DNA of 45,275 bases, taken from IMG/VR virus record IMGVR_UViG_3300028840_003477, positions 1 to 45,275 of that record. The stretch is one strand, 5' to 3'. The notes under the pieces are model-generated. The model ran no database searches. It saw only the letters and a list, made by a program, of their open reading frames with translations, and was not told the DNA's origin. Position numbers and translations under genes: made by a program. Positions 511 through 15,372 of the stretch are shown here, one piece after another (positions within the stretch are counted from its first letter, which is position 1; every line of letters starts with the position of its first letter). The stretch comes from a virus.

Positions 511-516
511 AGAGGG

Positions 517-1190: not shown

Positions 1191-1192
1191 CG

Positions 1193-1276
1193 ATGGAAGA
1201 GGTCGTAACGACGGCGGACAAAATCGCCTTCGCAATTTGCTTCGTCGTTCTCTTGCTAGCGATGAGGTGGAAGTAA
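1193..1276 (+). CDS. 27-residue membrane microprotein
   Basis: ATG at 1193, stop at 1274-1276. The product has an acidic N-terminus (MEEVVTTADK), one hydrophobic helix (about residues 10-24) and a basic end (MRWK). It begins two bases after the upstream stop, and its stop overlaps the next ATG as TAATG, so it fits precisely into the coupled operon. That fit, plus the transmembrane pattern, supports it as a real gene. No function can be assigned. Confidence 0.6.
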   Translation: MEEVVTTADKIAFAICFVVLLLAMRWK

Positions 1277-1530
1277 TGGGAGAAAAAAGACCGATAGACG
1301 GAGTCACGGTCAGTCCTTTCGCGGACAACGTAGCGTTCGCCGTCGATACAATCGTCAAGCAAACGATAAGTGCTATCAAAGCGAGTGACGAAGGTCAATT
1401 GATAGTGCGGACGTCGAAGGACGAAGAGATGTTGCGCGGCGCCGTGTACCTTCAAATCGGAAGGTATGCGATGAACGTAGCGAAAGCGGTGAACGAACGG
1501 TCGAAGAAAGAGGAGAGCGATGAAGGTTAG
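1276..1530 (+). CDS. Hypothetical protein, 84 aa
   Basis: The start at 1276 is chosen because it overlaps the preceding stop (TAATG) and has GAGGTGG just upstream; a longer reading frame from 1237 would overlap the microprotein completely. The sequence looks like a small alpha/beta protein followed by a helix and a charged tail (ERSKKEESDEG). I do not recognise a family. The 3' end, rich in GAAGAGGAGAG, doubles as the SD of the next gene, whose start lies 11 bases inside this one. Confidence 0.65.
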   Translation: MGEKRPIDGVTVSPFADNVAFAVDTIVKQTISAIKASDEGQLIVRTSKDEEMLRGAVYLQIGRYAMNVAKAVNERSKKEESDEG

Positions 1531-1717
1531 AGTCGTCTACACGGTCGAAGTCTCCGACGAATACCGACGTGCTTTGAACCTCCGATACGGAAAGCCGGGA
1601 CTCGCAACGCGAGACGAGTTGAAAGAACATCTTCGGACGCACGGCGATACAATCGATGAAGACCTCATGTACGAATACGATCAAGCCGTGAGGAACGGAG
1701 AAGAGGAGACGCGATGA
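1520..1717 (+). CDS. Hypothetical protein, 65 aa
   Basis: A small acidic protein. It starts with a beta-strand-like segment (KVRVVYTVEVSDEYRRAL), as in small DUF-type phage proteins that begin with a strand and then pack one or two helices. The SD AGGAGAG lies within the end of the upstream gene. It ends NGEEETR; the corresponding GAAGAGGAGACG provides the SD for the next gene at 1714, with an ATGA overlap. No cysteine clusters or membrane segments. Function unknown. Confidence 0.7.
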   Translation: MKVRVVYTVEVSDEYRRALNLRYGKPGLATRDELKEHLRTHGDTIDEDLMYEYDQAVRNGEEETR

Positions 1718-1980
1718 AGGGTAAAATGTCTTGGTGGAAGAGGCTGAGAGAGAAAGCCGCAACGACGAAGACGTTCAAAACGGCGGTCATCATCGAGCAG
1801 TTCAAAGCGATGACGCCTCCCCAGCAACGTCTCCTCTGGACGTTCCTCACCGCGATGAAAGCCTGCGAGAACATGGGCAAGACGGAGCAATTGGAAGACC
1901 AACTCGCTGAGTGGATACGAACGGACAGAGCGTTAGACATAGCGGAGAAGAGAGCAAGAATGGAGGACTACAAAAGATGA
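1714..1980 (+). CDS. Hypothetical helical protein, 88 aa
   Basis: Mostly helical and strongly charged, with a basic, Trp-containing start (MKGKMSWWKRLREKAATTK). A second ATG at 1726 (MSWWKRL) is possible, but the first ATG is coupled to the upstream stop and has the better SD (GAGGAGACG). It reads like a small soluble adaptor or peripheral-membrane protein. No family is recognised. Its stop overlaps the following start (ATGA), so it belongs to the same coupled operon. Confidence 0.7.
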   Translation: MKGKMSWWKRLREKAATTKTFKTAVIIEQFKAMTPPQQRLLWTFLTAMKACENMGKTEQLEDQLAEWIRTDRALDIAEKRARMEDYKR

Positions 1981-2171
1981 AAACCGATACCTCATTAGTG
2001 CTAGTTTTCAAAGTGTCGGAGGCGACGGAAGCGCTCATCGAGAAAGCACGTCAACTCGACAAGACGTTACCGACCGAAATGGAAGCACTCCATTTGAACG
2101 TCGATGGGAAGAAAGACGAAGTGCGCTTGACGGTCGCCGTCAAGATGCCCGATGCGGTCGGTAGTGCGTAG
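1977..2171 (+). CDS. Hypothetical protein, 64 aa
   Basis: Started at the ATG at 1977, which overlaps the preceding TGA; the frame extends upstream to 1911 but that part shadows the neighbour. The protein alternates strands and a helix: LVLVFKVSEATEALIEKA, then a strand pair with NVDGKKDEVRLTVAVKM. This resembles small dsDNA-phage accessory proteins with a beta-alpha-beta-beta outline. No catalytic motif is seen. Function unknown. Confidence 0.65.
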   Translation: MKTDTSLVLVFKVSEATEALIEKARQLDKTLPTEMEALHLNVDGKKDEVRLTVAVKMPDAVGSA

Positions 2172-2173
2172 CG

Positions 2174-2389
2174 GTGGGGAAGAAGAGTCGCAAGAAAAGA
2201 GAGTGTTGCGTCTGCGGAGAGACGAAACCGGGAAAGAAGCTCCGCAGCGGTTCGACGATCAACGGACGGCGCCCCAGAGTCTGCTACGACTGCGACGCAA
2301 AGAGCGAAGAGGACCATCGCTTGGACTATGAAGCGGCGTGCGAAGCGGACGGCATAGCGGCGTACCCTCCGTGTGGAAGAATTCGATGA
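2174..2389 (+). CDS. Zinc-finger protein (GTG start), 71 aa
   Basis: GTG start three bases after the upstream stop; no clear SD, so reinitiation is likely. A basic N-terminus (MGKKSRKKRE) leads into CCVCGETKP and then CYDCDAKSEED, a treble-clef-like pair of CxxC knuckles about 25 residues apart. Such small proteins usually bind nucleic acid or mediate protein contacts. It ends just before the next gene in an ATGA overlap. A weak point is the GTG start with no SD; the Cys pattern and tight packing support the gene. Confidence 0.7.
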   Translation: MGKKSRKKRECCVCGETKPGKKLRSGSTINGRRPRVCYDCDAKSEEDHRLDYEAACEADGIAAYPPCGRIR

Positions 2390-2958
2390 AGAAAATACCG
2401 GAGAAGATAGATGCGGAGATGGAGATTGATTTCTCAACTCATTTTCGGTCTGGTGTTCGGTCGATACTGCTTACACGTGAGTTTACGTCGTTCAATGATA
2501 TGACGATTGATTGGTGGGCGGACCTATTCACGGACGTCTTCGAAGAAGCGATGCGGACCTGGAACGACGGGGTGAAACGCTTCGAACACCGCCATCCAGA
2601 GCTTCAAGAAGACGACGATGAAGAGCTAGTTGAAAGCGGCGCCTTCGATAACGAGGCGGAAGAAGAGAACAAAGCGCTGAGGCTTGAAATCGAAGCGCTG
2701 GAAGAACAGTTGGGCGAAGCCCAAACGCTCTTGAGGGAAAGAGAAGAACACGTCCTCATCGTTCAGCAAACGGCGCGCAACGACGCTTACAGGGATACCA
2801 TCAACGGATTAAGAGCCATCTTGAAGGGTATCTCTACGAAGACGGACGATAATTTGATGAAACGGGAAGGACTCGGAAAGGCGTTGAAGCGCGTCAAACG
2901 GTTACTGAGAGACGGAGAAGAACGGCTCAAAGAGATGAAAGAAAAGGCAAAAGAATGA
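2386..2958 (+). CDS. Coiled-coil protein, 190 aa
   Basis: Started at the ATG coupled to the upstream stop (2386), not the earlier in-frame ATG at 2338. The N-terminal 65 residues look globular (IDFSTHFRSGVRSILLTREF and a Trp-rich WWADLF). Then comes an acidic linker (EDDDEELVESG) and a long heptad-rich region (about residues 88-135, ENKALRLEIEALEEQLGEAQ) followed by a basic helical tail. It likely oligomerises. It overlaps the large 573-residue gene by four bases and may work with it, since both carry coiled coils and charged segments. No enzymatic motif. Confidence 0.7.
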   Translation: MKKIPEKIDAEMEIDFSTHFRSGVRSILLTREFTSFNDMTIDWWADLFTDVFEEAMRTWNDGVKRFEHRHPELQEDDDEELVESGAFDNEAEEENKALRLEIEALEEQLGEAQTLLREREEHVLIVQQTARNDAYRDTINGLRAILKGISTKTDDNLMKREGLGKALKRVKRLLRDGEERLKEMKEKAKE

Positions 2959-4676
2959 GCGAAAAAATCGACGAAGGGAAGGCGCGTGAAGCAGAGCAAA
3001 ACGCCGTTCGGCTAGTGCGAGCGATTCGAGAGATGTTCGCTCCAGTTCTTGCCGTAGAGACGCGGCCGCATCGTGATCTCATATTCGTAGACGTAGATGC
3101 TCTTCAGGATCAGTCTCGCGATGATCTCCTCACGCTCTTGGATGTTTCCGAAGAGAGGCTTGCGGAGACGGAGCTGGAGAACGTCAGTTTGAAAGAGCGT
3201 CTTGAGACGGTTCGAAGCGAGACGATTGAAACGATGTTCGAGCTTGCGGAAGAGCGCATCGAGAAAGAGCGACGGGAACGAAGGCAACGGATGAGACGTT
3301 TTATCGAGTCGTTGAAAGGACATCGTGAGACGGCAAATCCTAGCTACGACGAAGTGGTACACGATTACGAGACGTCGCATCGTATCGGCTACTGCGCAGC
3401 GCTTGATATGGTGATCGAGATTTTGGGACTGGAGGAAGCGGGCCCATTGGACGAGCTATACGACTGGTTCAATCGTCATCAAGCCGCAACGCCTTCCGGA
3501 CCGGACGCGCCGCCCAAGCCGTTACCGTTCCCTCAACCCGAAGCAACTGTGAAAATCGCAAAGAAAGAGACGGAAGAAGAAGAGAAGAAGAATTGCCCGG
3601 CATGTCTTTCGGGATGGTTAGCGAATCACGGCCACGGTCCTCGATACGGATGCGAGAAGCACCTTGAGAAAGAACCGCTCACGCCCGCAATCGAGAAGAC
3701 GTTGGAAGAAGTCTCGGTGAGAGAGTTGATAGAAAAGGGCGTCACGGTTGAGGAGATGATCGCGCAAGACGTTGACTTGAAAGGTCTTTTAAGCCTCATC
3801 GCTATCATCGACGATTGGGGCATCGGTACGGACGTCAAAGAGCGTTGCCCGAACGAGCTTTATGACGAGTGGAAGGATATAGCTACATACGCAAAAGAGC
3901 TATTCCGAACGGACGAAGGCGACATCGTGAAAGAGTCGTTAGCGATACCGGCCGAACGGATTAAAGAGTTTGATTTGAAAACGGTTAGCCTCGTGAAGAA
4001 AGCTTGCCCTGGCGTCGGTGCTTACCCTATCCATCGCTCAATCGAAGAGACGTGTGAAGAATGCGATAAAATCGATGAATGCGCGTGGTGGCATCGCCGC
4101 AAAGAAGCGGAAGAGGCGAAAGAACTAGCGCGTGTAAGCGAAGAAGAGAAGACGCGCCTTGAAAAAGACCTCGAAACGCTAGAGAGGAACCTGGACGAAC
4201 CGATCAAATTAGGGGGTGAGACGGAAGTAGCGGACGAACGGCCGCTGATATCGCTACGGATAGAAGACCTCCCAGAAGAGAAGCGGGAAGAGATACAACG
4301 GTTGCTTACCGATGGGAGCTATCGAGGCTTTTCAATATCGTTAGGAGGGAAGGGACCAAGGGCTGAGCCTATCGTCAATCTCGATGAGGCGGACGCTATG
4401 ACGGGTATCGGTAGCTGGGGAGATATAGAACCGCAACCGGCGCCCGCCCCTTCAACGTATCGGCTAACCTTCCGGAAGGACGCCGATGGGAAAATCTTCC
4501 CGGTTCTAATCGATGAGGATTTCAACGTTTGGATAGGGATAGACCTGAGAGGGGAATCCGTTTCAAAAGGTGCCTTGATAGTAGCGACGGAAGGCGGGAA
4601 GTGGTGGAGCGAATCGATGGTAATTCCGTTTCAAGAGGAAGAAGAGACGGAAGAAAGCGGAACGGATGACGACTAG
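2955..4676 (+). CDS. Large multidomain coiled-coil/zinc protein, 573 aa
   Basis: Last and largest gene of the first operon. Residues 60-120 form a coiled coil. A proline-rich linker follows at 178-197. A first Cys/His cluster has C214, C217, C233 and H236; a second has C351, C367, C370, C376 and H380 (CEECDKIDECAWWH). Residues 383-412 are another charged helix. The C-terminal third (about 430-560) looks like two small beta-rich domains, the last with DFNVWIGIDLR. The tail is very acidic. The two metal-site candidates separated by helices suggest a scaffold or nucleic-acid-binding protein. I do not recognise the family. It is possibly a fusion of formerly separate modules. Confidence 0.75.
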   Translation: MSEKIDEGKAREAEQNAVRLVRAIREMFAPVLAVETRPHRDLIFVDVDALQDQSRDDLLTLLDVSEERLAETELENVSLKERLETVRSETIETMFELAEERIEKERRERRQRMRRFIESLKGHRETANPSYDEVVHDYETSHRIGYCAALDMVIEILGLEEAGPLDELYDWFNRHQAATPSGPDAPPKPLPFPQPEATVKIAKKETEEEEKKNCPACLSGWLANHGHGPRYGCEKHLEKEPLTPAIEKTLEEVSVRELIEKGVTVEEMIAQDVDLKGLLSLIAIIDDWGIGTDVKERCPNELYDEWKDIATYAKELFRTDEGDIVKESLAIPAERIKEFDLKTVSLVKKACPGVGAYPIHRSIEETCEECDKIDECAWWHRRKEAEEAKELARVSEEEKTRLEKDLETLERNLDEPIKLGGETEVADERPLISLRIEDLPEEKREEIQRLLTDGSYRGFSISLGGKGPRAEPIVNLDEADAMTGIGSWGDIEPQPAPAPSTYRLTFRKDADGKIFPVLIDEDFNVWIGIDLRGESVSKGALIVATEGGKWWSESMVIPFQEEEETEESGTDDD

Positions 4677-5698
4677 GAGAACGAGAGCATCCATCTAGCC
4701 TCTTCCCGACCGCTCCAACGGATACGAACCCTCATAAGCCCTTAATCAATTTAGAGATGCTATTAGGTATGCTCCTTTTTAGAGGATAACCGGGAGAAAC
4801 GCTTACACCATCTATAAACCGTTATCTCTTCCCCTACGTATAAGCCTTGAAATCCGCTAACAAAAAAATCTAACTAAACTAGGAGAAAACGCCCACTCTC
4901 CTTACGTCTTTAAAAATCCGCCCCTATCCCATCCACCCTGGGAACTAATCAAGAGCCATTCGAGTTGAAACGGAATCGATAATTCACCTATGAGAAAAAG
5001 AAAAAACCTGACGCTGTCCACTAACAAAGATAAGAGAGTAAAGCGGTATAGCCTACGGTAACATAGACCGATGTTCCCAGTCCTCCCTCCTATATACCCG
5101 TATAAGCGCAAACGATGGTGTATAGCGTATGGTAGCGAATAGAACGGACGTTGATGGGAAGCTATCGAGTTGAAAGCTTGGCGGTGTTGAAGTAGAGATA
5201 AAGGGAATTGAACGCTTTTGATGAACGTGGGTGGAGGAGGTGGAGCTTGAAACTTCCCGAGCGCTGCTTAGCTCACATCTGTGTGTTTTCAACCTAGTGC
5301 CTTGATGATGCCCTTGAGCGCAATTAATCCTCCCCGCAAGACGCCCATCAACTGCCTTCAAGACGTCCTATTGAAAGCCGGATAGCTAGTGGACTACAAT
5401 ACCGTTGGTTTATTCGGTGGCGTTTGCCTGGTGGCGCTAGATATTCGGCGCGGTATTCCGGGAAGAACGGGGAGAAGCCTTGATGGGGCAGTTGAAAGCT
5501 AGTCGGCTATGAGGAGGTGGAGGAGGCTGACCCCCTACTGCCCCCAAAATCTGGGCCACGAGAAAAAATGGCAATATGTCTGGGCGGCGGGGCATACACA
5601 ACTCGAAATTGAAACGGACAATTCCTTTTACCTCTAAATTAAAACCTCTCCCCAAGCGCCAAGCTCCACCTCCTACATAGCCTCAAAACGAAAAGAGT
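4677..5698. other. About 1.0 kb region without a convincing gene
   Basis: Between the stop at 4676 and the promoter at 5699 no frame has phage-like codon use plus an SD. The A+T content is higher than in the flanks. The region holds one copy of a repeated hairpin element (4876-4917) and an 8-bp complementary pair, CTGGGAAC (4938-4945) and GTTCCCAG (5073-5080), which could be chance. A 42-codon frame at 5509-5637 lacks an SD and family resemblance. I see no tRNA. The region may hold non-coding RNA, a cis-acting site or decayed genes. Confidence 0.6.
4876..4917 (+). repeat. Dispersed element copy 1 (AACTAGGAGAAA hairpin)
   Basis: One of three copies (also at 12014 and 17703) of TAAACTAGGAGAAA, about 22 variable bases, then TAAAA. 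Here AGGAGA pairs with TCTCCT across a 10-base loop. It lies 200 bp after the end of the first operon. Confidence 0.65.
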
Positions 5699-5727
5699 CA
5701 TCGACCCGTCGCCCGGTTCGATAGAAC
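5699..5727 (+). promoter_or_regulatory. Promoter, CATCGA-N17-TAGAAC class
   Basis: CATCGA at 5699-5704, a 17-bp spacer, TAGAAC at 5722-5727. It precedes the 5781 gene by about 50 bp. The leader carries GGGAAGGAG, also seen in front of the 8430 and 16907 genes behind the same promoter class. Confidence 0.6.
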
Positions 5728-5780
5728 CTAGTAGCACGGCGCCACGACGCCGCAAGTCACCAAACGGGAAGGAGCAAGAA

Positions 5781-6167
5781 ATGGAAACCGTCAAGAGCGA
5801 AGAGGAGGCAAGGAGTTGGTTCCTCATCCATTCGGAAGGGTTCGTCATCGTCGAACGGAGCGACGGCGCCACCAAAGAGGTATCGAGCTACCCAGAGGCA
5901 ATGGAATTCCTTCGGAGCGACGGTCCCAGCGACTTTCAGAAGGAGGTCGCCCGCAACGCGGTCGGAGCGCCAAGAGGCTACCCGCAAGACGACGTACCCA
6001 GCACAGAGCAGAATGGTCAGAACGCTGCCGCAGGGAAGTCGTCCAAAAATCCGGACGCGGACGACACCCCGCAAGGCGAGTGCCCGCCCATCATTCCGAA
6101 CGAGTTGAAAAGAGAGTACGTGATTCAGCTCGAAAAGGAACGCGACGAAGAGGAGACGGACGAATGA
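5781..6167 (+). CDS. Hypothetical protein, 128 aa
   Basis: First gene of the second operon, with a strong SD (GGGAAGGAG, eight bases before the ATG). Residues 1-50 form a small alpha/beta segment (SWFLIHSEGFVIVERSDG). Residues 50-100 are low-complexity and disordered. The C-terminus is a charged helix (LKREYVIQLEKERDEEE) ending EETDE, whose coding sequence supplies the SD of the next gene. ATGA overlap with the 6164 gene. No family recognised. Confidence 0.7.
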   Translation: METVKSEEEARSWFLIHSEGFVIVERSDGATKEVSSYPEAMEFLRSDGPSDFQKEVARNAVGAPRGYPQDDVPSTEQNGQNAAAGKSSKNPDADDTPQGECPPIIPNELKREYVIQLEKERDEEETDE

Positions 6168-6574
6168 TACGTTTCATCGATTTGCGCGGGCAGGGGACGG
6201 GAAGCCGGTTCGCATTCTACGATACCGTGCGCGATCATTTCTTGGAGTTGGAAGGCGAACAAGCATGGGACGTCTTTTTGGAGTTCGCAGAGGTCTGCGA
6301 CAACGCGAACCTGCGACAGCGTTGTAAGCGCCTCTGCCCGCCTTGGGCGTTTGAAAAAGAAGAATACCCGCACGTCAAGATAACGAATCCGCCCAAGCCC
6401 TGGACCCCAGGCTCACCGGACCTTCCCGAAGCACCGATCAAGCGACACGACCCGGAGGCCATCAAGGATGCGGTCCAGGAGGCGTGCGACCACGACTATG
6501 TAAGACGGACGGGGAGCGACTACTTCATCTGTTTGACGTGCGGACACGTGACCGACGATGGAGGAACGGGATGA
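6164..6574 (+). CDS. Hypothetical protein with C-terminal zinc ribbon, 136 aa
   Basis: Coupled start at 6164. The N-terminal part (RFIDLRGQGTGSRFAFYDTV) is followed by a helical segment with several cysteines. A proline-rich linker (NPPKPWTPGSPDLPEAP) leads to a C-terminal knuckle in which C and H of CDHDY and the CLTCGH motif form a probable zinc site. The layout suggests a small DNA- or protein-binding adaptor. The following gene starts in the ATGA overlap and is also cysteine-rich, so these two may act together. Confidence 0.65.
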   Translation: MIRFIDLRGQGTGSRFAFYDTVRDHFLELEGEQAWDVFLEFAEVCDNANLRQRCKRLCPPWAFEKEEYPHVKITNPPKPWTPGSPDLPEAPIKRHDPEAIKDAVQEACDHDYVRRTGSDYFICLTCGHVTDDGGTG

Positions 6575-7131
6575 GTTACAATCCGTGTAAAAACTGTGAG
6601 TGGTCGGCGGGCATAGAGAACCGTTGCGTGCTTCCGGACGAAGATGGACCGTGCGCTTATGACGTGGCGAAAGCTCTTGCGGTCGAGAAGAAAGCCATCG
6701 CATTCGATTTGGCGTGGAGGAAGGAGCACGACGGGGAGACGCTTTGCTGCGTCTGCGAAGTCCCCGGCCGATGGTTAGCATCGCACGACGGGAAAGCGTA
6801 TTGCGCGACGTGTTTGGCGAATCAACTCGCAGCGGAAGTCGCGGAACGAGACAACCAACTCACGCAACCAATCGAGCGCATCGAACAAGAACCGGCCGAA
6901 GACACGCTCACGCTCATCAGCAGCACGCCGTGGAGCGATCAGGGCGGGCACATCGCGTTCTACAGGACGCCGGGAACAACGAGCGTCTACATCCAGTTCC
7001 GGGAAAGCGAAGAGGCTCACAACGTCGTCTACCGCATCAACATCGAAGAGGCGGCGATCAAGATACTGGAGCATCATTCCGGTATCATCCAAACGTACGC
7101 AAGGGAGATATTGAAAGCGAGGCGCGCATGA
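6571..7131 (+). CDS. Cysteine-rich protein, 186 aa
   Basis: Coupled start at 6571. Two Cys clusters are visible: CKNC (residues 6-9) with C19 and C28, and CCVC (59-62) with CATC (78-81). The second pair looks like a zinc ribbon of the type found in small phage regulatory proteins; the first resembles ferredoxin-like or zinc knuckle spacing. Residues 105-186 form a separate alpha/beta domain (HIAFYRTPGTTSVYIQF, then two helices), similar in outline to small single-domain phage proteins. Function unknown. An ATGA overlap leads into a membrane microprotein. Confidence 0.7.
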   Translation: MSYNPCKNCEWSAGIENRCVLPDEDGPCAYDVAKALAVEKKAIAFDLAWRKEHDGETLCCVCEVPGRWLASHDGKAYCATCLANQLAAEVAERDNQLTQPIERIEQEPAEDTLTLISSTPWSDQGGHIAFYRTPGTTSVYIQFRESEEAHNVVYRINIEEAAIKILEHHSGIIQTYAREILKARRA

Positions 7132-7253
7132 CGCATACTCAAATTGTCGTCGCGATCATCGGCTTGGTCCTCGTTGTCGGGTTATCCTTCGTTTGGATAT
7201 TCACCATCGCCCATATCGGCGGATGGCGCCCGAAACGGAGAAAGAAGAAATGA
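7128..7253 (+). CDS. Single-span membrane protein, 41 aa
   Basis: ATGA-coupled on both sides. Residues 5-28 form one hydrophobic helix (IVVAIIGLVLVVGLSFVWIF), followed by a strongly basic cytoplasmic tail (RPKRRKKK). By the positive-inside rule the N-terminus is outside and the C-terminus inside. It could be a small membrane regulator or anchor; no evidence singles out a holin. The next gene also begins with a membrane segment. Confidence 0.65.
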   Translation: MTHTQIVVAIIGLVLVVGLSFVWIFTIAHIGGWRPKRRKKK

Positions 7254-7654
7254 AAGACGCTTTCAAAAATGCGATGAGGCCGTTCGTTCGATTCGCGGGA
7301 GACGTCTTGGAATCGATGTCTGAACCGTCCGTCTTTTTCCTAGTGATAGTGGTCGCGTTTCTATCGGCGCTCATCATCGGGACCGCAATGAGTCCGCCGC
7401 AAGGAGGAGAGATGACCGAAGCAATCTACTTCAGAATGGACGATGAAGAAATCCGATTCGAGAAAACCGGAGACGGCGTGCCGCGCATCGGGGAGAAAGT
7501 CAAAGTGCGCCATTGCGTCGTTGAAGGGAAAGGGTTCAACGACCGTTGGATGGAGGGACGCGTCAAAGACGTGTCGTGGTACTTCAGCAGCGGCAACGAC
7601 AGCAAGCCGGTCGTCTACATCGAGCTTGAAGGCTACCAGGGGAGGAAGAAATGA
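7250..7654 (+). CDS. Membrane-anchored hypothetical protein, 134 aa; internal start likely
   Basis: The coupled start at 7250 gives a basic amphipathic N-terminus, a transmembrane helix (about residues 27-47), then a soluble domain from residue 55 (MTEAIYFRMDDEEIRFEK) rich in strands. An internal ATG at 7412 starts exactly at that domain and has its own near-ideal SD (AAGGAGGAGAG). Two products, membrane-anchored and soluble, may therefore be made from one frame. The soluble part has the look of a small beta-barrel, with HCVVEGKGFNDRWMEGRV. No family recognised. Confidence 0.65.
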   Translation: MKDAFKNAMRPFVRFAGDVLESMSEPSVFFLVIVVAFLSALIIGTAMSPPQGGEMTEAIYFRMDDEEIRFEKTGDGVPRIGEKVKVRHCVVEGKGFNDRWMEGRVKDVSWYFSSGNDSKPVVYIELEGYQGRKK

Positions 7655-8037
7655 CCCAAGCTCTAACATTGCCGCTCAAGGCGCATCGCTTCAGACTCGC
7701 GTATCTCCTCCAGTGTACGGTTTACCTCGCCTATGAATACCGCAAGATGCTCGACCCGAAAGAGGGAGCGAAGAAGTTGCGCGAGGAATTGAAGTGCCTC
7801 TGCCATCGAGAACAGTTGTACGATTTTCAAGTGAGGTTCGACGAAACGCTTTGGCCGCCTTCGAACCCGGAGGATTACGAGCAGTTGATGGAGATCAACC
7901 TACGACCGGACGGCAGCGCAGAGTTCTTCCAAGTGCGTATCGACTTTCGCAAGAGTCGGCATCACGGCGTTTCGATACTGAGTGATGGGGCGGGATGGTT
8001 TCCCATCGACGTCTTCCACGTCCGATTTACCGAATAG
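7651..8037 (+). CDS. Hypothetical protein, 128 aa
   Basis: Last gene of the second operon, coupled by ATGA, with GGGGAGGAAG as SD. The N-terminal half is helical (LLQCTVYLAYEYRKMLDPKE, then a basic helix). The C-terminal half is strand-rich (FQVRFDETLWPP, EINLRPDGSAEFFQVRIDF). Two close cysteines (CLC near residue 49) could be structural. No membrane segment or active-site motif. It ends 16 bp before the promoter of the structured RNA. Confidence 0.7.
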   Translation: MTQALTLPLKAHRFRLAYLLQCTVYLAYEYRKMLDPKEGAKKLREELKCLCHREQLYDFQVRFDETLWPPSNPEDYEQLMEINLRPDGSAEFFQVRIDFRKSRHHGVSILSDGAGWFPIDVFHVRFTE

Positions 8038-8052
8038 CATCTTCAAAAAGTT

Positions 8053-8081
8053 CATCGATTCAACTCCGGTTCGGGTATACT
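8053..8081 (+). promoter_or_regulatory. Promoter of the 8088-8364 RNA, CATCGA-N17-TATACT
   Basis: CATCGA at 8053-8058, 17-bp spacer ending CGGG, TATACT at 8076-8081. The expected start is near 8088. No gene follows before the terminator at 8332, so this promoter appears dedicated to a non-coding RNA. Confidence 0.65.
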
Positions 8082-8087
8082 TCTTTA

Positions 8088-8364
8088 GCAGAGGGAGGAC
8101 TAAGCACAGTGCGCCTAGGAATCGCGAACGAACTACTCAAAAGGATGGCACGGCCGCTTCCTCCCACGGCCCCTTGCGAGCACGTTGGCGCTGGCGCAAC
8201 CCCAATGGTGGACTCCGGGCCACGGCGTATTACCCGGAGCACGCATGTCCGGTACCTGCTCAACGTACCGGACGATTAGCAACGTTGCGGCGCGGTGCGC
8301 GCGTCCCGTGTGCTAGGGGCAAGATGCGACGAAAGGGCCGGCACCGTGTCGGCCCTTTCTTTTT
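8088..8364 (+). ncRNA. Structured non-coding RNA, about 275 nt
   Basis: It is bounded by a promoter (8053-8081) and an intrinsic terminator (8332-8364). Several stems are directly visible: a closing stem AGCACA (8103-8108) with TGTGCT (8309-8314); CTCCGGG (8213-8219) with CCCGGAG (8233-8239); and a perfect 9-bp hairpin GTCCGGTAC (8247-8255) with GTACCGGAC (8265-8273). GGCCG/CGGCC (8152-8156, 8167-8171) presents CTTCCTCCCA in its loop. That loop is complementary to SD sequences and to GGGAGGA at 8093-8099 in the same RNA, so a pseudoknot or self-lock is possible. It does not match tmRNA, RNase P, SRP or tRNA features that I know. A regulatory or antisense role is inference. Confidence 0.7.
8332..8364 (+). 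terminator. Intrinsic terminator
   Basis: Perfect 9-bp stem AAAGGGCCG (8332-8340) and CGGCCCTTT (8350-8358) with a 9-base loop, followed by CTTTTTC. It ends the structured RNA and isolates it from the next promoter, which starts 13 bp later. Confidence 0.9.
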
Positions 8365-8376
8365 CAATTGGAGTTT

Positions 8377-8405
8377 CATCGACTCCGTTTTCAATCGGGT
8401 AGTAG
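8377..8405 (+). promoter_or_regulatory. Promoter, CATCGA-N17-TAGTAG class
   Basis: CATCGA at 8377-8382, 17-bp spacer ending CGGG, TAGTAG at 8400-8405, directly behind the terminator. It drives the 8430 operon, whose leader again carries GGGAAGGAG. Confidence 0.6.
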
Positions 8406-8429
8406 TAAGTAACACGGGAAGGAGTCCAA

Positions 8430-8723
8430 ATGATACTCGACATCCGCAGGGCGATAGTCGTCACCGGTCGGGAGCTAGACACGGTCTTCATCGACACGGG
8501 ACTAACTGAGGCGACGTTCCCTTACACGCGGCGCCTCCGCATGATGTTCGAAGCGGCGCCGGGAGAGGGAGTAGCATACGTCAAAGAGCATTTCGGACTC
8601 GACCCAGACGTCATCGAGATCAAGCGGGCATCGGCCTACACTCCCAAGAAGAAGAGGAAGAAAAAGTCAGCGGACGATACGCCCAAGAAGAAGAAGAGGA
8701 AGAAGCGCAAGGAGGCGGAATGA
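8430..8723 (+). CDS. Small protein with highly basic tail, 97 aa
   Basis: First gene of its operon, with SD GGAAGGAG. Residues 1-70 look folded (MILDIRRAIVVTGRELDTVF, EAAPGEGVAYVKEHFGLDPD). From residue 71 the chain becomes almost pure Lys/Arg with two KKK-type blocks separated by SADDTP. Such tails bind nucleic acid or ribosomes, or neutralise packaged DNA. The folded part is not recognised. ATGA overlap to the next gene. Confidence 0.7.
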   Translation: MILDIRRAIVVTGRELDTVFIDTGLTEATFPYTRRLRMMFEAAPGEGVAYVKEHFGLDPDVIEIKRASAYTPKKKRKKKSADDTPKKKKRKKRKEAE

Positions 8724-9130
8724 ACGACCAAAACAACGACGCGCCGGACATGCTCGACTTCACGAACGCGATGCCCAAATTCTGTAAGGGTTGCGACTAC
8801 AACGACGACACGGTCAATGACGGGCAAGGACCGGCTTGCGTCGCCGTCACCGATCAATACTGGGCTTGCGTTCGCGCCTTCCGCAGCGGCAAAGTCGAAC
8901 ACGGTCCGGTTTCCTATCACGAGGCGACGGGCGCACCCATCATCGAAGAGGACGAACCCGGCCCAGAGCGTTTCGAGGTGAAAGTGGTCGGGAACTATCT
9001 CAACGCCGTCGCCACCGTCATCGGTCCGGTCGATGAGGAGACGGCGATGGAGGTCGTGAAGGAATTGGTCAAGCACGAGGACTTCAACCCGATGAAGCAC
9101 TCCATCAAAATCGAACCCGTGGAGGAGTAG
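8720..9130 (+). CDS. Hypothetical cysteine-containing protein, 136 aa
   Basis: Coupled start. The N-terminal half holds FCKGCDY (residues 21-27) and two later cysteines (PACVAV, WACV), which may form a zinc knuckle. The C-terminal half (residues about 75-135) is an alpha/beta unit (ERFEVKVVGNYLNAVATVIG, then a helix VVKELVKHEDF). The stop lies three bases before the next ATG, and GGAGGAG at its end is that gene's SD. Function unknown. Confidence 0.7.
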   Translation: MNDQNNDAPDMLDFTNAMPKFCKGCDYNDDTVNDGQGPACVAVTDQYWACVRAFRSGKVEHGPVSYHEATGAPIIEEDEPGPERFEVKVVGNYLNAVATVIGPVDEETAMEVVKELVKHEDFNPMKHSIKIEPVEE

Positions 9131-9132
9131 TG

Positions 9133-9498
9133 ATGGGCGAAGAAGCGAAAGCGGAAGAGAAAGAATACACCCCGAAGACCGATGAGGAGCTGAAGCAAAT
9201 CGCGCAAGACCTTTGGGCGGGAAAAATCTACACCGACCGTCACATCCCGGAACAAGAGATGCCGTACGCATTGGCGACGGTCTTCATGCCCCTCGCTTTG
9301 ATGCATCCGGATGATCGGGAAAAGCTCTTCACCGGGGAGAACAAACCGACGCTCATATATGAGTACCTCGACAAAGCCGGTCCGCGCAGCGTCAACGGCA
9401 TGCCCGGCTTTTTCAGTTTCCATTGTCTCAACGAAGAGGAGACGGAGCGCATGTTCAGATACTACACCGCCATCCAAGAAGCGATGGACGCGCTATGA
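9133..9498 (+). CDS. Hypothetical protein, 121 aa
   Basis: The ATG at 9133 is preferred over the GTG at 9130, because GGAGGAG (9121-9127) is five bases from the ATG but only two from the GTG. Acidic, largely helical, with a conserved-looking core (MPYALATVFMPLALMHPDD and FFSFHCLNEEETERMF). No metal or catalytic motif. It overlaps the next gene by ATGA. No family recognised. Confidence 0.65.
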   Translation: MGEEAKAEEKEYTPKTDEELKQIAQDLWAGKIYTDRHIPEQEMPYALATVFMPLALMHPDDREKLFTGENKPTLIYEYLDKAGPRSVNGMPGFFSFHCLNEEETERMFRYYTAIQEAMDAL

Positions 9499-10265
9499 GC
9501 GACTCCGACGAAAAACTGATCCGCATTCGAGACGACCTCCGCAAGCAGCACGACGCGATGGAAGAAGAACGCGATGCGCTCATCTCCGAAAGGAAGAAGA
9601 TGGAAGAGCGCATCACGGCGCTCAACAAGAAGACGAACCAACTGAAGCACGCGATTCAATCGTTGGAGGTCGCTATCAACGGCGGGAAGAAGCCCGCAAC
9701 GGAACTTCCTCCACGCTCGCAAGTAGCATCGGTGAGCCCACGACGTCTCCGCATCATCGAGGTCTTGGAGAGGCGAGGTGATTGGACGGCGCCGGGAGAC
9801 ATCGCCAAAGAGATGGACGACGATTCGAGTATCATCGGCGGGTATCTCTTCCGGATGTTCAAAGCGGGGAAGGTCCAACGCAAGCAGCTGAGCGCTCGCA
9901 GGTTCCTTTACCGCGTTGGCGCGAAGTCGAAACCGGCGCCCGCAAAGCCCAAACCGAAACCGGCGCCGAAGAGGAAAGCGAAACTTCCACCGCGCAAAAA
10001 GGCGAAACCGAAACCGAAGAAGAAGCCGGTCAAGGAAAGGCTCGACAAGGGGACGGTGAAGCAGCTCGTGGAGATGGCTATCGAGGCGATGGAGGAAGAG
10101 GTTTGGTACACGGCGCAAGGGATACTCGAAGCAGCGGCGCGCAAGCGCATCATCTCTCGCAACGTGAGCTACGAACGCGCACCGGACCTGGAAGCGGCGC
10201 TCATCTCCAGCCAACGGTTCTATCAACGCGATGAAGACGGGCGGACGGAGTTCAAGAAGCTGTAG
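9495..10265 (+). CDS. Coiled-coil winged-helix DNA-binding-like protein, 256 aa
   Basis: Residues 5-60 are a coiled coil (KMEERITALNKKTNQLKH). Residues about 82-148 look like a winged helix: RRLRIIEVLERRGDWTAPGD, a second helix IAKEMDDDSSIIGGYLFRMF, and a wing KVQRKQLSARRFLYRVG. A Lys/Pro-rich linker (150-190) follows, then a second small helical domain (LVEMAIEAMEEEVWYTAQGI) ending FYQRDEDGRTEFKKL, itself reminiscent of another winged helix. A two-headed dimeric DNA-binding regulator is a reasonable inference. The target is unknown. It closes the 8430 operon. Confidence 0.65.
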   Translation: MSDSDEKLIRIRDDLRKQHDAMEEERDALISERKKMEERITALNKKTNQLKHAIQSLEVAINGGKKPATELPPRSQVASVSPRRLRIIEVLERRGDWTAPGDIAKEMDDDSSIIGGYLFRMFKAGKVQRKQLSARRFLYRVGAKSKPAPAKPKPKPAPKRKAKLPPRKKAKPKPKKKPVKERLDKGTVKQLVEMAIEAMEEEVWYTAQGILEAAARKRIISRNVSYERAPDLEAALISSQRFYQRDEDGRTEFKKL

Positions 10266-10270
10266 CGTTT

Positions 10271-10299
10271 CATCTTCCCGTCCTTCAACTCAGTAGGGT
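10271..10299 (+). promoter_or_regulatory. Promoter, CATCTT-N17-TAGGGT class
   Basis: CATCTT at 10271-10276 (preceded by GTTT), 17-bp spacer, TAGGGT at 10294-10299; a TATAAG overlaps at 10299-10304. It precedes the 10317 gene with room for a short leader carrying GAGGAG. Confidence 0.5.
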
Positions 10300-10316
10300 A
10301 TAAGAGGAGAACGGAA

Positions 10317-10607
10317 ATGGAGATCAACGAAGGAACCGCCAAAGATTCGTTCGCCTTGCGACTCTACGGAAGCAAGAGCCAAGAGCTAGTCACCATCGGA
10401 CGCGACGGGACGGTGACGATTCACGAAGAGGGTGCCGAGACGGAGGCAGCGCGTGTCTTCTATGAGGCGCTCGAATTCGAGGGCAAGGCGCTTCACAAGC
10501 GCATCGAGACGTTGGAGGAGGCAATCCGGGAAACGGAGCGTTGGCTGCGGGGGACCGGCCACGCGAAGATGGCCAAACGTCTCCGCAGAGCGCTGGAGGG
10601 AAAATGA
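10317..10607 (+). CDS. Hypothetical protein, 96 aa
   Basis: First gene of its operon, SD GAGGAG eight bases before the ATG. The N-terminal half is strand-rich (FALRLYGSKSQELVTIGRDG, TVTIHEEG), the C-terminal half helical (YEALEFEGKALHKRIETLEE and a basic helix). The second half of the outline recalls small phage proteins with a beta-hairpin plus coiled-coil end. No family recognised. ATGA overlap with the next gene. Confidence 0.7.
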   Translation: MEINEGTAKDSFALRLYGSKSQELVTIGRDGTVTIHEEGAETEAARVFYEALEFEGKALHKRIETLEEAIRETERWLRGTGHAKMAKRLRRALEGK

Positions 10608-11032
10608 AAAAGAGGCAATGGAGGCAATGGAAACTTTCGAAGGTTCCGAAGGAGTGGCGCCCGTGGGCGCTGCTGTTACGGAATGAAGTCCATACAAGCG
10701 CCGATTTCGCCAAGGCGATGCGACGCCAATCGGTCAACGTCCGCTGCGCCGTCATCGCCGCATTCGTCGTTGCGAATGAGCAGCTCAAGCGGAACGGTTA
10801 CACCTCCGCATACAGCTGCCCGGCGCATCGGCTTTCGGAGACGTATGATTTGAGTTTCGTCGGCGGGATTTGGAACGTCAGCTGCAAGAAATGCGTGTGC
10901 TTCCGTATCACGAAGATGGAGTGCCACGATCTCCGGGATAGCGCACGCACGGTTCTCCAAGCGGCGGAAGTCCTCTACACACGCGCATTCGCCCGTCTCA
11001 CGAAGGCGGAACGGGAGGTGCTGACGCGATGA
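10604..11032 (+). CDS. Hypothetical cysteine-containing protein, 142 aa
   Basis: Coupled start at 10604. A basic Trp-rich N-terminus (MKKRQWRQWKLSKVPKEWRP) precedes a helical region. Residues 66-105 carry SCPAHRLSET and SCKKCVCFRITKMEC, a cluster of Cys/His that may bind zinc. The C-terminus is helical (ARTVLQAAEVLYTRAFARL). Possibly nucleic-acid binding; function not assigned. It overlaps the next start by ATGA. Confidence 0.65.
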   Translation: MKKRQWRQWKLSKVPKEWRPWALLLRNEVHTSADFAKAMRRQSVNVRCAVIAAFVVANEQLKRNGYTSAYSCPAHRLSETYDLSFVGGIWNVSCKKCVCFRITKMECHDLRDSARTVLQAAEVLYTRAFARLTKAEREVLTR

Positions 11033-11211
11033 AGTCATCCACTACGCAAGAAGAGGCGAAAGAGCGACCGCCACAGATCATCGAGTGTACGGAAATCTCG
11101 TGCGAGGACTGGGACGAGTTCATTGAGCTACTCTCGCACGCAAACAATCGCTTGTTCCGCCTTTTCCCGGACGGGTATTGGCGGGCGAGCGACATCGTCG
11201 TGGAGATGTAG
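11029..11211 (+). CDS. Hypothetical protein, 60 aa
   Basis: Small acidic protein coupled on the 5' side (ATGA). It begins with a disordered charged stretch (SSTTQEEAKERPPQ), followed by a short alpha/beta unit (EISCEDWDEFIELLSHANNR, FRLFPDGYWRASDIVVEM). Its TAG is directly followed by the next ATG. The ending suggests one helix and a beta hairpin. No family recognised. Confidence 0.6.
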   Translation: MKSSTTQEEAKERPPQIIECTEISCEDWDEFIELLSHANNRLFRLFPDGYWRASDIVVEM

Positions 11212-11409
11212 ATGCGATACGAGATTCTCACCGGGACGTCCGAAACGTTGGAAGAGAAAGTCCAAAAATATTTGGATCACGGATGGGAGTTGTACGGCGC
11301 TCCGTTTCGCTTGGGTGCGAGAAGTCCCGATGCGATGATTATGGTCGGCCAAGCGGTCATCAAACGTTCGCGGCCGAAACCTCCATCGGTCAAAGAGGAG
11401 ACGGAATGA
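11212..11409 (+). CDS. DUF1737-like small protein, 65 aa
   Basis: MRYEILTGTSETLEEKVQ, then GWELYGAPFR and DAMIMVGQAVIK: this is the strand-helix-strand layout of the DUF1737 family, small proteins of about 60-70 residues in which a helix is followed by a GW-x-P/LYG turn and a final strand with QAM/QA. Their biochemical role is unknown. Length fits the family. It starts right after the upstream TAG. The end (VKEETE) codes for GAGGAGACGG, which is the SD for the next gene. Confidence 0.7.
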   Translation: MRYEILTGTSETLEEKVQKYLDHGWELYGAPFRLGARSPDAMIMVGQAVIKRSRPKPPSVKEETE

Positions 11410-11663
11410 GCGAGAAGCCCGAAGATTCAAAAGCGCCGGAAGGCGCGAAGCCGTTGGGGGCGGACCGTTGGCCCGATGAGCACGGCAACGCGATGGACCT
11501 CGAACAAGCGCGAAAGATTCTCCCAGGCGTCCATTGCGAGTGCGGTTGGGGAGGCGTGCTTTGCGAGCTGTTGATGGACGAAGAGGAGACGACCTTGTAC
11601 TGCCCCGAGTGTCGAACGACGAAATGGGCTTACAAGACCGGGAAGGACCAGGAGAAGAAATGA
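11406..11663 (+). CDS. Zinc-ribbon protein, 85 aa
   Basis: Coupled start at 11406. After a disordered N-terminus (SEKPEDSKAPEGAKPLGADR) it carries CECGWGG, a further cysteine (LCELL) and CPECRTTKW, i.e. a CxC plus CxxC ribbon about 20 residues apart. This is the fourth or fifth small zinc-binding protein of the left arm. Ends GKDQEKK, with AGGAGAAG as SD for the next coupled gene. Confidence 0.7.
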   Translation: MSEKPEDSKAPEGAKPLGADRWPDEHGNAMDLEQARKILPGVHCECGWGGVLCELLMDEEETTLYCPECRTTKWAYKTGKDQEKK

Positions 11664-11944
11664 TTTCAAAAAAGGACAAGCGACTGGTCGAAGACTTGGG
11701 GAAGGTCTGCTTACACGGGACGCCTCCGATGGAGACGATCATGAAGCTTCAAAGCATCGCGGCGAAGCTCATCGAGGAAAACGAACGCATCGAGGACGGC
11801 GTGCGCTTCCTACACGAGCAGTTCAAGGAGGGGCACGGCGCTCACGACATCGCGGCGTGGATTTTAGCGGGCGGAAACCCTCGCAAAATCATCAAGGGCG
11901 AAGAGCAAGTCCCAAGGTCGTGTTTGCGTAATCCACAGCCCTAA
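11660..11944 (+). CDS. Hypothetical helical protein, 94 aa
   Basis: Coupled start. Helices predominate (KRLVEDLGKVCLHGTPPMET, then IMKLQSIAAKLIEENERIED, then a third helix GAHDIAAWILAG). The sequence ends in a short basic tail. It is the last gene of the third accessory block; about 160 bp of intergenic DNA with a dispersed hairpin element follows. No family recognised. Confidence 0.65.
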   Translation: MISKKDKRLVEDLGKVCLHGTPPMETIMKLQSIAAKLIEENERIEDGVRFLHEQFKEGHGAHDIAAWILAGGNPRKIIKGEEQVPRSCLRNPQP

Positions 11945-12013
11945 CGCAGACGCTGTCGGCAAATGCGCAACGTGCCCCCTCCAATAGCAGTTAAGTCAAA
12001 ATGGAAAAGTCCG

Positions 12014-12056
12014 ATTAAACTAGGAGAAATGGTGCACTTTCTTCTCAACTCTAAAA
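12014..12056 (+). repeat. Dispersed element copy 2 (AACTAGGAGAAA hairpin)
   Basis: TTAAACTAGGAGAAA, 22 bases, TAAAAA; same architecture as at 4876 and 17703. Here AGAAA pairs with TTTCT. An AGGAG-spaced ATG at 12029 opens a frame of 17 codons starting MVHFLLNS, ending at 12082. The element sits between the end of the accessory block and the glycosyltransferase gene. Confidence 0.65.
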
Positions 12057-12108
12057 ACGCGCGCAACCGGCAGAAGTGGTGAGCGCATTACCGGCAAGGA
12101 GTTAGTCC

Positions 12109-13017
12109 ATGGGGTTTAGCATTTCGATGGAAAATTGGGATTCAAAAGCGCACTACGAATTTGGCATCGGATGCGGCTACTACTTCTCAGGGCTACGCAC
12201 GGTGATGAGGAAAGGAGAGATGGCCGAAATCCCCATCGCGCCCGAGAAGCAAACAGCCGTCTTCAAGGAGACGCTGGCCCAGTTCTCCGACCTCGCCCAA
12301 GCGGAAGGCGGGTTGCCGTTCCTAATCATCGATGATTGCTCCCCGGTATCGCTTCCCATCGAAGAGTTGAAAGAAATCGTCGGAGACAACCCGTTGCTCT
12401 TCATTCGACCGCCTCGCAACTTGGGAACGGCGGGGAAAGAGAACCTCATCCAGCGCGTTCTATCTGAGCGGTGTAAGTACGTCGTGCGGTTCGACGCGGA
12501 CGTGAAGTTTGATCCGTTTACACTGGACTATTTTCGAGACGCCTTCGCAGAGCTTCCGGACGCGTGGGCCATCACTCCGTGTATCACTTACTTCGCAAGG
12601 CTCGATGCGTCGAATCTCCCTGAGGACCAACGTTACTTCTCCGGATCAAACATCGCGGACCTTGCGGTGATGGACTCCGCCATCTTCGACGAAATCGGCT
12701 ATGCCGACCCGAAGGTCAAATGGAATGAGGATGGGGAATACCGGCTGCGGGCGAAAGCGATCACGGGGAAGCTATGTTATGTCGATAAGGAGATGACCGG
12801 GACGGCCAAGCCGACTGGGGGAGGCGGAAAGCCTCTTGAGTTCCGAGCAAAGGCGGGTCGCTACATCGACAAGACGCGGCCGTTCATCAAGGTCGTCTAT
12901 CCCAAGGGCAAGACGCCTCGCCTCATGCTCGACAAAAAGCGACTCGATGAGGTGAAGGAGTTCTACATCCCGGCGCATCCCATCGCGGAAAGGCTAGCGA
13001 ATCGCGTTTGGGACTAG
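12109..13017 (+). CDS. GT-A-type glycosyltransferase-like protein, 302 aa
   Basis: Shows the core of a family-2-like (GT-A) nucleotide-sugar transferase: a strand ending LIIDDCSP (about residues 72-80), NLGTAGKENLIQ (about 104-115), and a DxD motif in YVVRFDADVKFDP (about 125-137). A later WNEDGEYRLRAK matches the usual acceptor-side ED motif. The length is typical. Possible roles are decoration of virion proteins, of modified bases in phage DNA, or of host surface glycans. SD AAGGAG precedes the ATG at 12109; an internal ATG at 12220 also has a good SD but would lose the first segment. It stands alone as a one-gene unit between the accessory block and the sigma-like gene. Confidence 0.75.
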   Translation: MGFSISMENWDSKAHYEFGIGCGYYFSGLRTVMRKGEMAEIPIAPEKQTAVFKETLAQFSDLAQAEGGLPFLIIDDCSPVSLPIEELKEIVGDNPLLFIRPPRNLGTAGKENLIQRVLSERCKYVVRFDADVKFDPFTLDYFRDAFAELPDAWAITPCITYFARLDASNLPEDQRYFSGSNIADLAVMDSAIFDEIGYADPKVKWNEDGEYRLRAKAITGKLCYVDKEMTGTAKPTGGGGKPLEFRAKAGRYIDKTRPFIKVVYPKGKTPRLMLDKKRLDEVKEFYIPAHPIAERLANRVWD

Positions 13018-13028
13018 CACGAGAGTTT

Positions 13029-13057
13029 CATCCCCGCAAGGTCGAATCAGGTAGAAT
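13029..13057 (+). promoter_or_regulatory. Promoter, CATCCC-N17-TAGAAT class
   Basis: CATCCC at 13029-13034 (preceded by GTTT), 17-bp spacer ending CAGG, TAGAAT at 13052-13057. It drives the sigma-like gene after a leader of about 150 nt. Confidence 0.6.
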
Positions 13058-13175
13058 AGAGTAGTGATAACAGCTGGGGCCGCGTCGCATCCGCCTCAAA
13101 TCCGTCGCCGCCCAAACCCAGGTCTGTATCGGCGTTCCTTCCCGGCGCCGGTGGGGATAGGGAAAAGAGAACCGA

Positions 13176-13207
13176 GGCCATTGCCGCTGGAAGGATGGCC
13201 GCTTTTT
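13176..13207 (+). terminator. Attenuator-like terminator in the leader of the sigma-like gene
   Basis: GGCCAT (13176-13181) pairs with ATGGCC (13195-13200) across a 13-base loop and is followed by GCTTTTT. It sits 10 bases before the ATG at 13217 and about 110 nt into the transcript, so it could stop transcription before the gene (attenuation) or define a short leader RNA. Confidence 0.5.
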
Positions 13208-13216
13208 AGGGAAGAA

Positions 13217-13732
13217 ATGCCGAAGAGGAAACGCAACTACAGGCGGCAGAAGTTACTCCGGGACGGACGCATCCGACCAAGGACGATACCCGTCAAGAAA
13301 ATGACGAAAGAGCAGTTGCGGGTAGGTCGCTTGCTGTATCCATTTTTCGAGAACGAACCGATGCCGCGCACACGCGCCGAATGCCGTGAGGTTCCCCGGC
13401 CGTGTCCCTTCGTCCGGTGTAAGTACAACTTGTACCTCGATGTTGATCCGAGAACGGGAAGTCTCAAGCTCAATCATCCGGATAAGGAACCGGACGAACT
13501 GGAGGAGAGTTGCGCGCTGGACATCGCGGAAAGAGGCGGGATGACGCTTGAGGAAGTTGGTCTTGCGATCAATACGACTCGTGAGCGCGTTCGGCAAATC
13601 GAAAGCGCGGCCGAAGAACGCCTTCAGAATAGACCGGAAGCGAAGAAGATGCGCGAAGACGTGGACGAGATGACCAATGAAAAGGACCATTCGTTGAACG
13701 GTTCCTCCGTCACGAGTAGGTTCAAGGCATGA
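13217..13732 (+). CDS. Sigma-70 region 4-like regulator, 171 aa
   Basis: Residues 109-137 (MTLEEVGLAINTTRERVRQI, then ESAAEERL) match the helix-turn-helix of sigma-70 region 4.2, the part that reads the -35 element. Before it lies RPCPFVRCKYNLYLDVDP and a segment ending ELEESCALDIAERGG, an arrangement I know from small sigma-like regulators frequent in Myxococcota/deltaproteobacteria. There is no region 2, so it cannot act as a whole sigma factor. It could bind -35 DNA and/or RNA polymerase like a phage co-activator. ATG 13217 (SD GGGAAG) is preferred over a GTG at 13064: the intervening 51 codons are Pro/Arg-rich and contain a terminator. It is itself behind one of the promoters it may recognise. 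Confidence 0.8.
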   Translation: MPKRKRNYRRQKLLRDGRIRPRTIPVKKMTKEQLRVGRLLYPFFENEPMPRTRAECREVPRPCPFVRCKYNLYLDVDPRTGSLKLNHPDKEPDELEESCALDIAERGGMTLEEVGLAINTTRERVRQIESAAEERLQNRPEAKKMREDVDEMTNEKDHSLNGSSVTSRFKA

Positions 13733-14976
13733 GCGAAAGGGAACCAACTGTTGTCTTCGGTTTCTCGGAAACGGGAGATTTCAATATCAGCATTTCCGAT
13801 TCGGACGTTGACGAAAGCGTCCTTGCGGAACTGGCCGTTTGGATAGGGGAGCAAATCAAGTGCGACATCGTCGATCACGATTTGAAAGGGAAGGTGCGTT
13901 ATCTGATCGACGTGATGATGCGCTCTCAAGTTGAATCCGGCGCGTTGGTCTACAACCGTTTGACGAAGAAGTGGGTGCGCCCCGAATCACTCCCGGCACT
14001 CCCTTCCCTCCCATCGCTTCCTGGTATTCCCGAACTTCCCGCCATCGATGCGCCCGCAATCATAGCACCTCCAGGCTCGCCCATTTTCGAGCCTCCAGTT
14101 CACGGTCCGCCTCCTCACGAAGCGGGGACATTCGCCGGGATCAAAGTCATCTCTTCTCCTCACGTGAAGGAGGGAGAAATTTTGATGATATCTCCCAAGG
14201 GAGTAGAGACGATTGCGACGGGAATCGAGACGACCGGGAAGGCGATGGCCGAGGTTAGCAAAATGAAAGCGAAGGACCGCACACTACCACGGCCGGGAGT
14301 CTACATCGAAGAGGTCGCAACGCCGGGCATTGAGGCACTTCCGCCCGAAGCCACGATGACGTTCGAACGCGGCAAGAGCAAGGTGGAAGATTATGAGGCT
14401 CTCAAGGAGATAGTTGGGCGCAAAGGCGTCGTGATCGAACCGCCGCACCTTGCGTCAACGACCGATGTCGAACGATTGAAAGAATTTGCGACGCGGTTAG
14501 GCATCCCAGAAGAGGAAGTTCTCAAGGCAATGGACGAGTTCGGCTACACGCACGCCGGTCGCATCGATGAAGAAGAGGACGATGAGTGGGATTTGGAGTG
14601 CGGGGAGTTCGACGATTTGCCCGTGGAAGAAGCGGACGAAGAACCCGTGGAAGAGACGCCCGAAGATGAGGCGATGGTCGTCGCATTTTTGAAGGACTCC
14701 GACACGGGCGTTACAGTCGCTTTCAAGGACTTCAAATTCACGCAGGAGAGTAGTACAACGACGCCGCAAAAAGAATTCCAATTGAAGCTTGAAGTTTCCG
14801 ACGCAGAGATGGAACGTTTGAGGTTCTCTTTCAAGGTCGGAAACTGCTTCCGTTTCGCAACGTCCGATGATCGCATTTCGGCGCCGTTGATCGTCGCCTC
14901 CGTGAACTTCGATTACCGCAACGCATTGAGGCAGAATACGATCACTCTTGAGGGCGTCATCGGGGAGGGTACGTGA
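13729..14976 (+). CDS. Proline-rich multidomain hypothetical protein, 415 aa
   Basis: ATGA-coupled to the sigma-like gene. Residues 1-85 look like a small alpha/beta domain (PTVVFGFSETGDFNISISDS). A Pro/Leu/Ala repeat follows (LPALPSLPSLPGIPELPAID, residues about 92-130). A middle segment (HVKEGEILMISPKGVETIAT) has a beta-rich look reminiscent of major-capsid or sheath fragments, then a helical EEVLKAMDEFG, a very acidic stretch (DEEEDDEWDLECGEFDDLPV), and a C-terminal strand-rich domain (residues 320-415). No enzymatic motif. The architecture suggests an adaptor. The function is unknown. Confidence 0.7.
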   Translation: MSEREPTVVFGFSETGDFNISISDSDVDESVLAELAVWIGEQIKCDIVDHDLKGKVRYLIDVMMRSQVESGALVYNRLTKKWVRPESLPALPSLPSLPGIPELPAIDAPAIIAPPGSPIFEPPVHGPPPHEAGTFAGIKVISSPHVKEGEILMISPKGVETIATGIETTGKAMAEVSKMKAKDRTLPRPGVYIEEVATPGIEALPPEATMTFERGKSKVEDYEALKEIVGRKGVVIEPPHLASTTDVERLKEFATRLGIPEEEVLKAMDEFGYTHAGRIDEEEDDEWDLECGEFDDLPVEEADEEPVEETPEDEAMVVAFLKDSDTGVTVAFKDFKFTQESSTTTPQKEFQLKLEVSDAEMERLRFSFKVGNCFRFATSDDRISAPLIVASVNFDYRNALRQNTITLEGVIGEGT

Positions 14977-15197
14977 TGGCGTTCGCCGTGAGCGAAGAGT
15001 GGGTTGCGAAGCGCATTCGATTGAACTCGGAAGTGGTCGATGACGCCGCACGTTTGAGGATCAAATCCGGAGACGTGGAGACAGTAGCCGAATGGGTGGA
15101 ACGCCTCTTCGACGATGGGCCCTACATGGCCGCCTCCATCATGGAAATTAACTACGAAACCCTGCGAGAAAAGGTCGAAGGTCCGCAGGAAAAGTAG
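14976..15197 (+). CDS. Hypothetical protein, 73 aa
   Basis: The ATG at 14976 overlaps the preceding TGA (TGATG), with GGGAGGG upstream; a GTG at 14973 is an alternative. The chain is helical (SEEWVAKRIRLNSEVVDDAA, VAEWVERLFDDGPYMAASIM). It resembles short helical accessory proteins but matches no family I know. It is the last gene before a sharp change in base composition at 15198. Confidence 0.65.
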   Translation: MAFAVSEEWVAKRIRLNSEVVDDAARLRIKSGDVETVAEWVERLFDDGPYMAASIMEINYETLREKVEGPQEK

Positions 15198-15321: not shown

Positions 15322-15372
15322 ATGTATGGAGAGGAACTCAAAAAAAACGGTTACGAAAAAAAGGAGTCCAAA

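Follow-up and report, generated by a model that had tools for sequence, protein, structure and literature searches.

Noncoding RNAs of phages are often abundant during infection, and their role is rarely known. Among bacterial RNAs, the closest described systems are small RNAs (sRNAs) with C-rich motifs that pair with Shine-Dalgarno (SD) sites, such as RNAIII and IsrR in Staphylococcus, and FsrA (PMC9410917). Intergenic noncoding RNAs (ncRNAs) expressed by phages have been detected by RNA-seq in phage K (PMC9241854) as well as in ICP1 and the satellite PLE (PMC7567579), and antisense RNAs complementary to gene leaders are cited in PMC7567579 for phages P1, P7, N15, and P4. The locus examined here most likely encodes an orphan phage ncRNA whose function can only be inferred.

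Phage record and genomic context

The window, i.e., the whole stretch of DNA analysed, is a virus record of 45,275 bases with genes for terminase, portal, head maturation, and tail sheath proteins, and these genes mark it as a fragment of a phage with a contractile tail. Related viral records reach up to about 100 kb. The terminase shares no more than 39% identity with its relatives in bacterial genomes, which are too distant to name the host. Genes on the + strand of the window are tightly packed. Across 18 large related phage records, protein homologues are missing for nearly the whole early region (1-17500), and the structural half matches well. No relatives were found for the proteins neighboring the ncRNA locus, which were used as search anchors.

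A 63-bp A+T-rich repeat occurs in about seven tandem copies at the contig end (1-440), directly before a perfect promoter site at 480, and the gene at 517 that follows this site is possibly leaderless. The gap at 4677-5780 (1,104 nt) has no called genes, a lower G+C content (0.49), and a fold that is not unusual (z +0.5); it carries GGTGGAGGAGGTGGAGCTTG near 5230, a near-perfect complement of it near 5660, and a promoter-like site (5697) near its end. A 58-nt repeat occurs in two copies that are 71% identical (4864-4921 and 12005-12062), each in a noncoding gap.

Transcription unit

Between the + strand genes 7651-8037 and 8430-8723 in the early region lies a gap of 392 nt (8038-8429), in which every frame has a coding score below those of the phage's own genes. 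This agrees with an earlier description made from the letters of the DNA (the sequence-only reading), which had reported about 275 nt without a convincing gene. The following elements were recognized in and around this unit:

8051-8081, + strand: promoter of the phage's own class, with TTCATCGA at 8051-8058, a 17-nt spacer, and TATACT at 8076-8081
8088-8364, + strand: predicted noncoding RNA of about 275 nt, between promoter and terminator, with an inferred start
8331-8364, + strand: intrinsic terminator, with a hairpin at 8331-8359 (13-bp stem, 3-nt loop) and then T5
8375-8405, + strand: another promoter of this class (TTCATCGA-N17-TAGTAG), for gene 8430-8723

A generic sigma-70 scan found no promoter in the gap 8038-8429. 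The phage-specific motif TTCATCGA-N17-TAKNNT was derived by eye from a comparison of gaps (sites 480, 5697, 8051, and 8375); it is matched perfectly at 480, just upstream of the first gene, and at 8051, and with one mismatch at 8375, and there are weaker intergenic sites on the + strand besides. When up to two mismatches were allowed, 7 of the 11 + strand matches and 1 of the 5 minus-strand matches were intergenic, where the intergenic share is 9.8%; four of the 11 + strand sites had defined the motif, and the independent evidence is three intergenic sites out of seven. Through this motif, the promoter that had been placed ahead of the RNA was recovered at 8051-8081, with a predicted start at approximately 8087-8089. 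The protein encoded at 13064-13732 shows a weak match to sigma-70 region 4 (Pfam PF04545, E 4e-6) and may be a candidate reader of such promoters.

The strong terminator of the sequence-only reading was confirmed as well, its hairpin having a folding energy of -22.2 kcal/mol. Considering that the second promoter lies past this terminator, transcription would restart for gene 8430-8723. The arrangement of promoter and terminator at 8051-8364 is beyond chance. Among gaps of at least 220 nt in the window, 8038-8429 is the only one with a strong terminator deep inside, units resembling it are rare in 18 related records, and similar-sized gaps in related records show no resemblance to the RNA. Because the unit has its own promoter, no convincing gene, and a strong terminator, and the next gene has a separate promoter, the unit is best read as a free-standing transcript of about 275 nt, and the stand-alone noncoding transcript proposed earlier is well supported by this anatomy. 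Judged from these sequence signals, the transcript 8088-8364 quite probably exists.

Homologue searches

No match to Rfam was obtained for the whole window at the gathering threshold, and at a permissive threshold the best weak matches of the gap (E 0.18 to 2.4) were far below thresholds, so that no family of riboswitches or leaders scored high enough. Homologues of the RNA were likewise not detected in phage and plasmid collections, in viral contigs searched with the exact loop pattern, by blastn in 9 and then 47 related viral records, or in 2.2 Mb of related records searched with a covariance model built from the single RNA sequence. Absence of the RNA from relatives says little about its reality, because the early region is nearly all lineage-specific relative to the 18 large records.

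Predicted fold of the RNA

The predicted fold contains a 5' domain closed by a helix and a long rod with two hairpins, followed by the terminator:

8093-8099, + strand: GGGAGGA, 5' strand of the lock helix, pairing with 8159-8165
8159-8165, + strand: TCCTCCC, anti-SD-like strand, sequestered by the 5' end of the RNA in the predicted fold
8169-8320, + strand: rod domain, with a basal stem (8169-8174/8315-8320), internal loops, and two apical hairpins

Both apical hairpins of the rod (8213-8219/8233-8239 and 8247-8255/8265-8273) are GC-rich; the latter is the perfect 9-bp hairpin described earlier, and the closing P1-like stem of that description corresponds to the basal stem of the rod. For 8168-8322, the MFE structure is identical to the centroid (-76.4 kcal/mol, z -2.42), and 5 of 200 shuffles were as good. 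This stretch has the lowest absolute fold energy in the window, and its z is attained by 5.6% of equal windows (n=571 across the sequence). The z value is -2.1 for the RNA including the terminator and only -1.1 for the core 8088-8330. The modelled rod fold is therefore best described as well defined and plausible, statistically modest against shuffles rather than extraordinary. An exact search for the 9-bp hairpin (AGTCCGGTAC...GTACCGGACT) returned four unrelated phages, in at least two of which the stem is followed by a T run and appears terminator-like; terminator-like copies are found at L196:4060-4088 and L197:7453-7476.

The sequence-only reading had placed an anti-SD sequence in a hairpin loop and joined it to GGGAGGA in a pseudoknot. 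The C-rich segment is CTTCCTCCCA at 8157-8166. In the predicted fold, however, GGGAGGA and TCCTCCC form a plain nested 7-bp helix with pair probabilities of 0.85-0.999, whereas the rival hairpin GGCCG-CTTCCTCCCA-CGGCC (8152-8171) has a probability of about 0. A fold constrained to contain this hairpin is 8.8 kcal/mol less stable, a figure that leaves out whatever a pseudoknot might contribute, and it loses the rod's basal stem. On average, CTTCCTCCCA is unpaired with a probability of 0.14, and for TCCTCCC this value is near 0. The proposed loop is accordingly not borne out, its strand being buried in the nested helix, and a pseudoknot between the two strands appears disfavoured, with the reservation that nested folding cannot score pseudoknots. 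The idea of self-locking fits the GGGAGGA/TCCTCCC closure, in the form of an ordinary helix rather than a pseudoknot. CCTCC was present in 22% of shuffles, 7.6% of them had both GGAGG and CCTCC, and in 13% some hairpin loop found a 7-nt complement outside itself; since CCTCC and such a loop arise this often, the combination of loop and 7-mer complementarity is not beyond chance.

A candidate target in the adjacent gene

One site outside the RNA deserves consideration as a partner of its C-rich stretch CTTCCTCCC:

7640-7648, + strand: GGGAGGAAG, ribosome-binding site of gene 7651-8037, a possible target

Outside the RNA, the window offers no other exact 9-nt complement of CTTCCTCCC, and among 61 ribosome sites the adjacent gene 7651 provides the best complement (-18.2 kcal/mol; next -14.9). 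Random 10-mers bearing CCTCC have an exact match of at least 9 nt to some ribosome site in 9.7% of cases, reach an energy as low in 13%, and have an adjacent gene as best target in 4%. Pairing between CTTCCTCCC and 7640-7648 may thus be regarded as a suggestive lead whose strength is within chance. Mean pairing with the ribosome sites of the phage is approximately that of the standard bacterial anti-SD, which was assumed for the host. Target prediction for the CCTCC loop, which the sequence-only reading had proposed, delivered one standout (gene 7651) and no broad target set, and the claim that the RNA could pair with many mRNAs is not supported.

Proposed function and alternative explanations

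On balance we favor a stand-alone phage ncRNA gene at 8088-8364, with a predicted fold and a putative regulatory role. The phage-type promoter would start the transcript near 8088 and the intrinsic terminator would end it near 8364, and the RNA could then act in trans as a regulator whose C-rich strand is held closed by its own 5' end. A competing GGGAGGAAG site might free this strand, whose pairing with the ribosome-binding site would prevent translation; the mRNA of the adjacent gene 7651-8037 is the best candidate. The base-pairing mechanism itself is doubtful, and the burial of the pairing strand in the modelled fold counts against it. It is very unlikely that the RNA is regulatory through an SD/anti-SD lock in which its 5' end, as a mimic of a ribosome site, keeps the anti-SD strand closed; a matching mRNA (e.g., that of gene 7651) or a ribosome would open such a lock, and phage translation would thereby be tuned.

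Should base pairing not be the mechanism, protein binding by the rod is the most likely alternative. The RNA would then be a structural element recognized by a phage or host protein, with the SD/anti-SD helix simply a part of the fold, and we give this explanation an appreciable, though clearly minority, chance. The rod is the best-defined part of the RNA and the most stable fold of the window in absolute terms, and the SD/anti-SD complementarity is both near chance level and buried; however, no homologue is available to show conservation of the rod, its z of only -2.4 is matched by 5.6% of other windows, and it has no known protein partner. A short mRNA, in which GGGAGGA is a true SD sequence for a GTG at 8109 and a 56-aa protein extends to 8279 before the terminator ends the message, is unlikely. 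Its frame (8109-8279) is indeed open and preceded at 9-10 nt by an SD-like motif, and the codon score beats nearly all wrong-frame windows, but that score is under 99.5% of true gene windows and, after correction for composition, is equalled by 32% of wrong-frame windows. Moreover, the spacing of 9-10 nt is atypical (the phage mode is 6), in the predicted fold the SD lies paired to codons of its own frame, no match to the frame was found in phage genomes or Pfam, and long open frames are expected at the G+C content of 64%.

It is quite unlikely that the region is a leader whose conditional terminator (attenuator) controls the operon from 8430. Attenuation would suit a promoter, a structured leader, and a terminator that precede a gene in the same orientation, but a separate promoter of this class at 8375-8405, past the terminator, belongs to the operon, and Rfam offered no riboswitch or leader family at threshold. 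A test for an antiterminator in the leader found none: the best pairing (-16.4) is weaker than the terminator hairpin (-22.2), is reached by 45% of shuffled leaders, and is no better than these. An element acting at the DNA level, for instance as a binding site or an origin of replication, with inverted repeats that merely resemble RNA stems, seems highly improbable. Such an element might account for the perfect inverted repeats at 8247-8273 and 8213-8239 and for the location of the gap in the early region, whereas promoter, terminator, and nested rod suit a transcript better, and a search of the gap for tandem repeats was negative.

Comparison with known systems

If real, the ncRNA of 8088-8364 would be a phage ncRNA with a specific and testable target next door, and its restriction to one lineage would mainly show that structured RNA genes can change as fast as phage early proteins. 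It differs from GOLLD and ROOL RNAs (several hundred nt) in its length of about 275 nt and in not being near tRNA genes; no Rfam match to these families and no tRNA were found in the window. Like the C-rich-motif sRNAs, it has a C-rich stretch, CTTCCTCCC, that is complementary to SD sites (at a strength compatible with chance), together with its own promoter and terminator. Unlike them, however, it shares no homology with those RNAs, and its strand is sealed by its own 5' end, whereas their motif is predicted to be single-stranded; the RNA is classed only as an orphan phage ncRNA. It resembles the ncRNAs of phage K, ICP1, and PLE in being an intergenic phage RNA; theirs are expressed in infection and mostly of unknown function, whereas its expression is a prediction. 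From the antisense RNAs of P1, P7, N15, and P4, the RNA here differs in lying downstream of its candidate target, on the same strand and with its own promoter, and in offering only 9 nt for pairing; it is like them in being encoded beside a gene whose ribosome site could pair.
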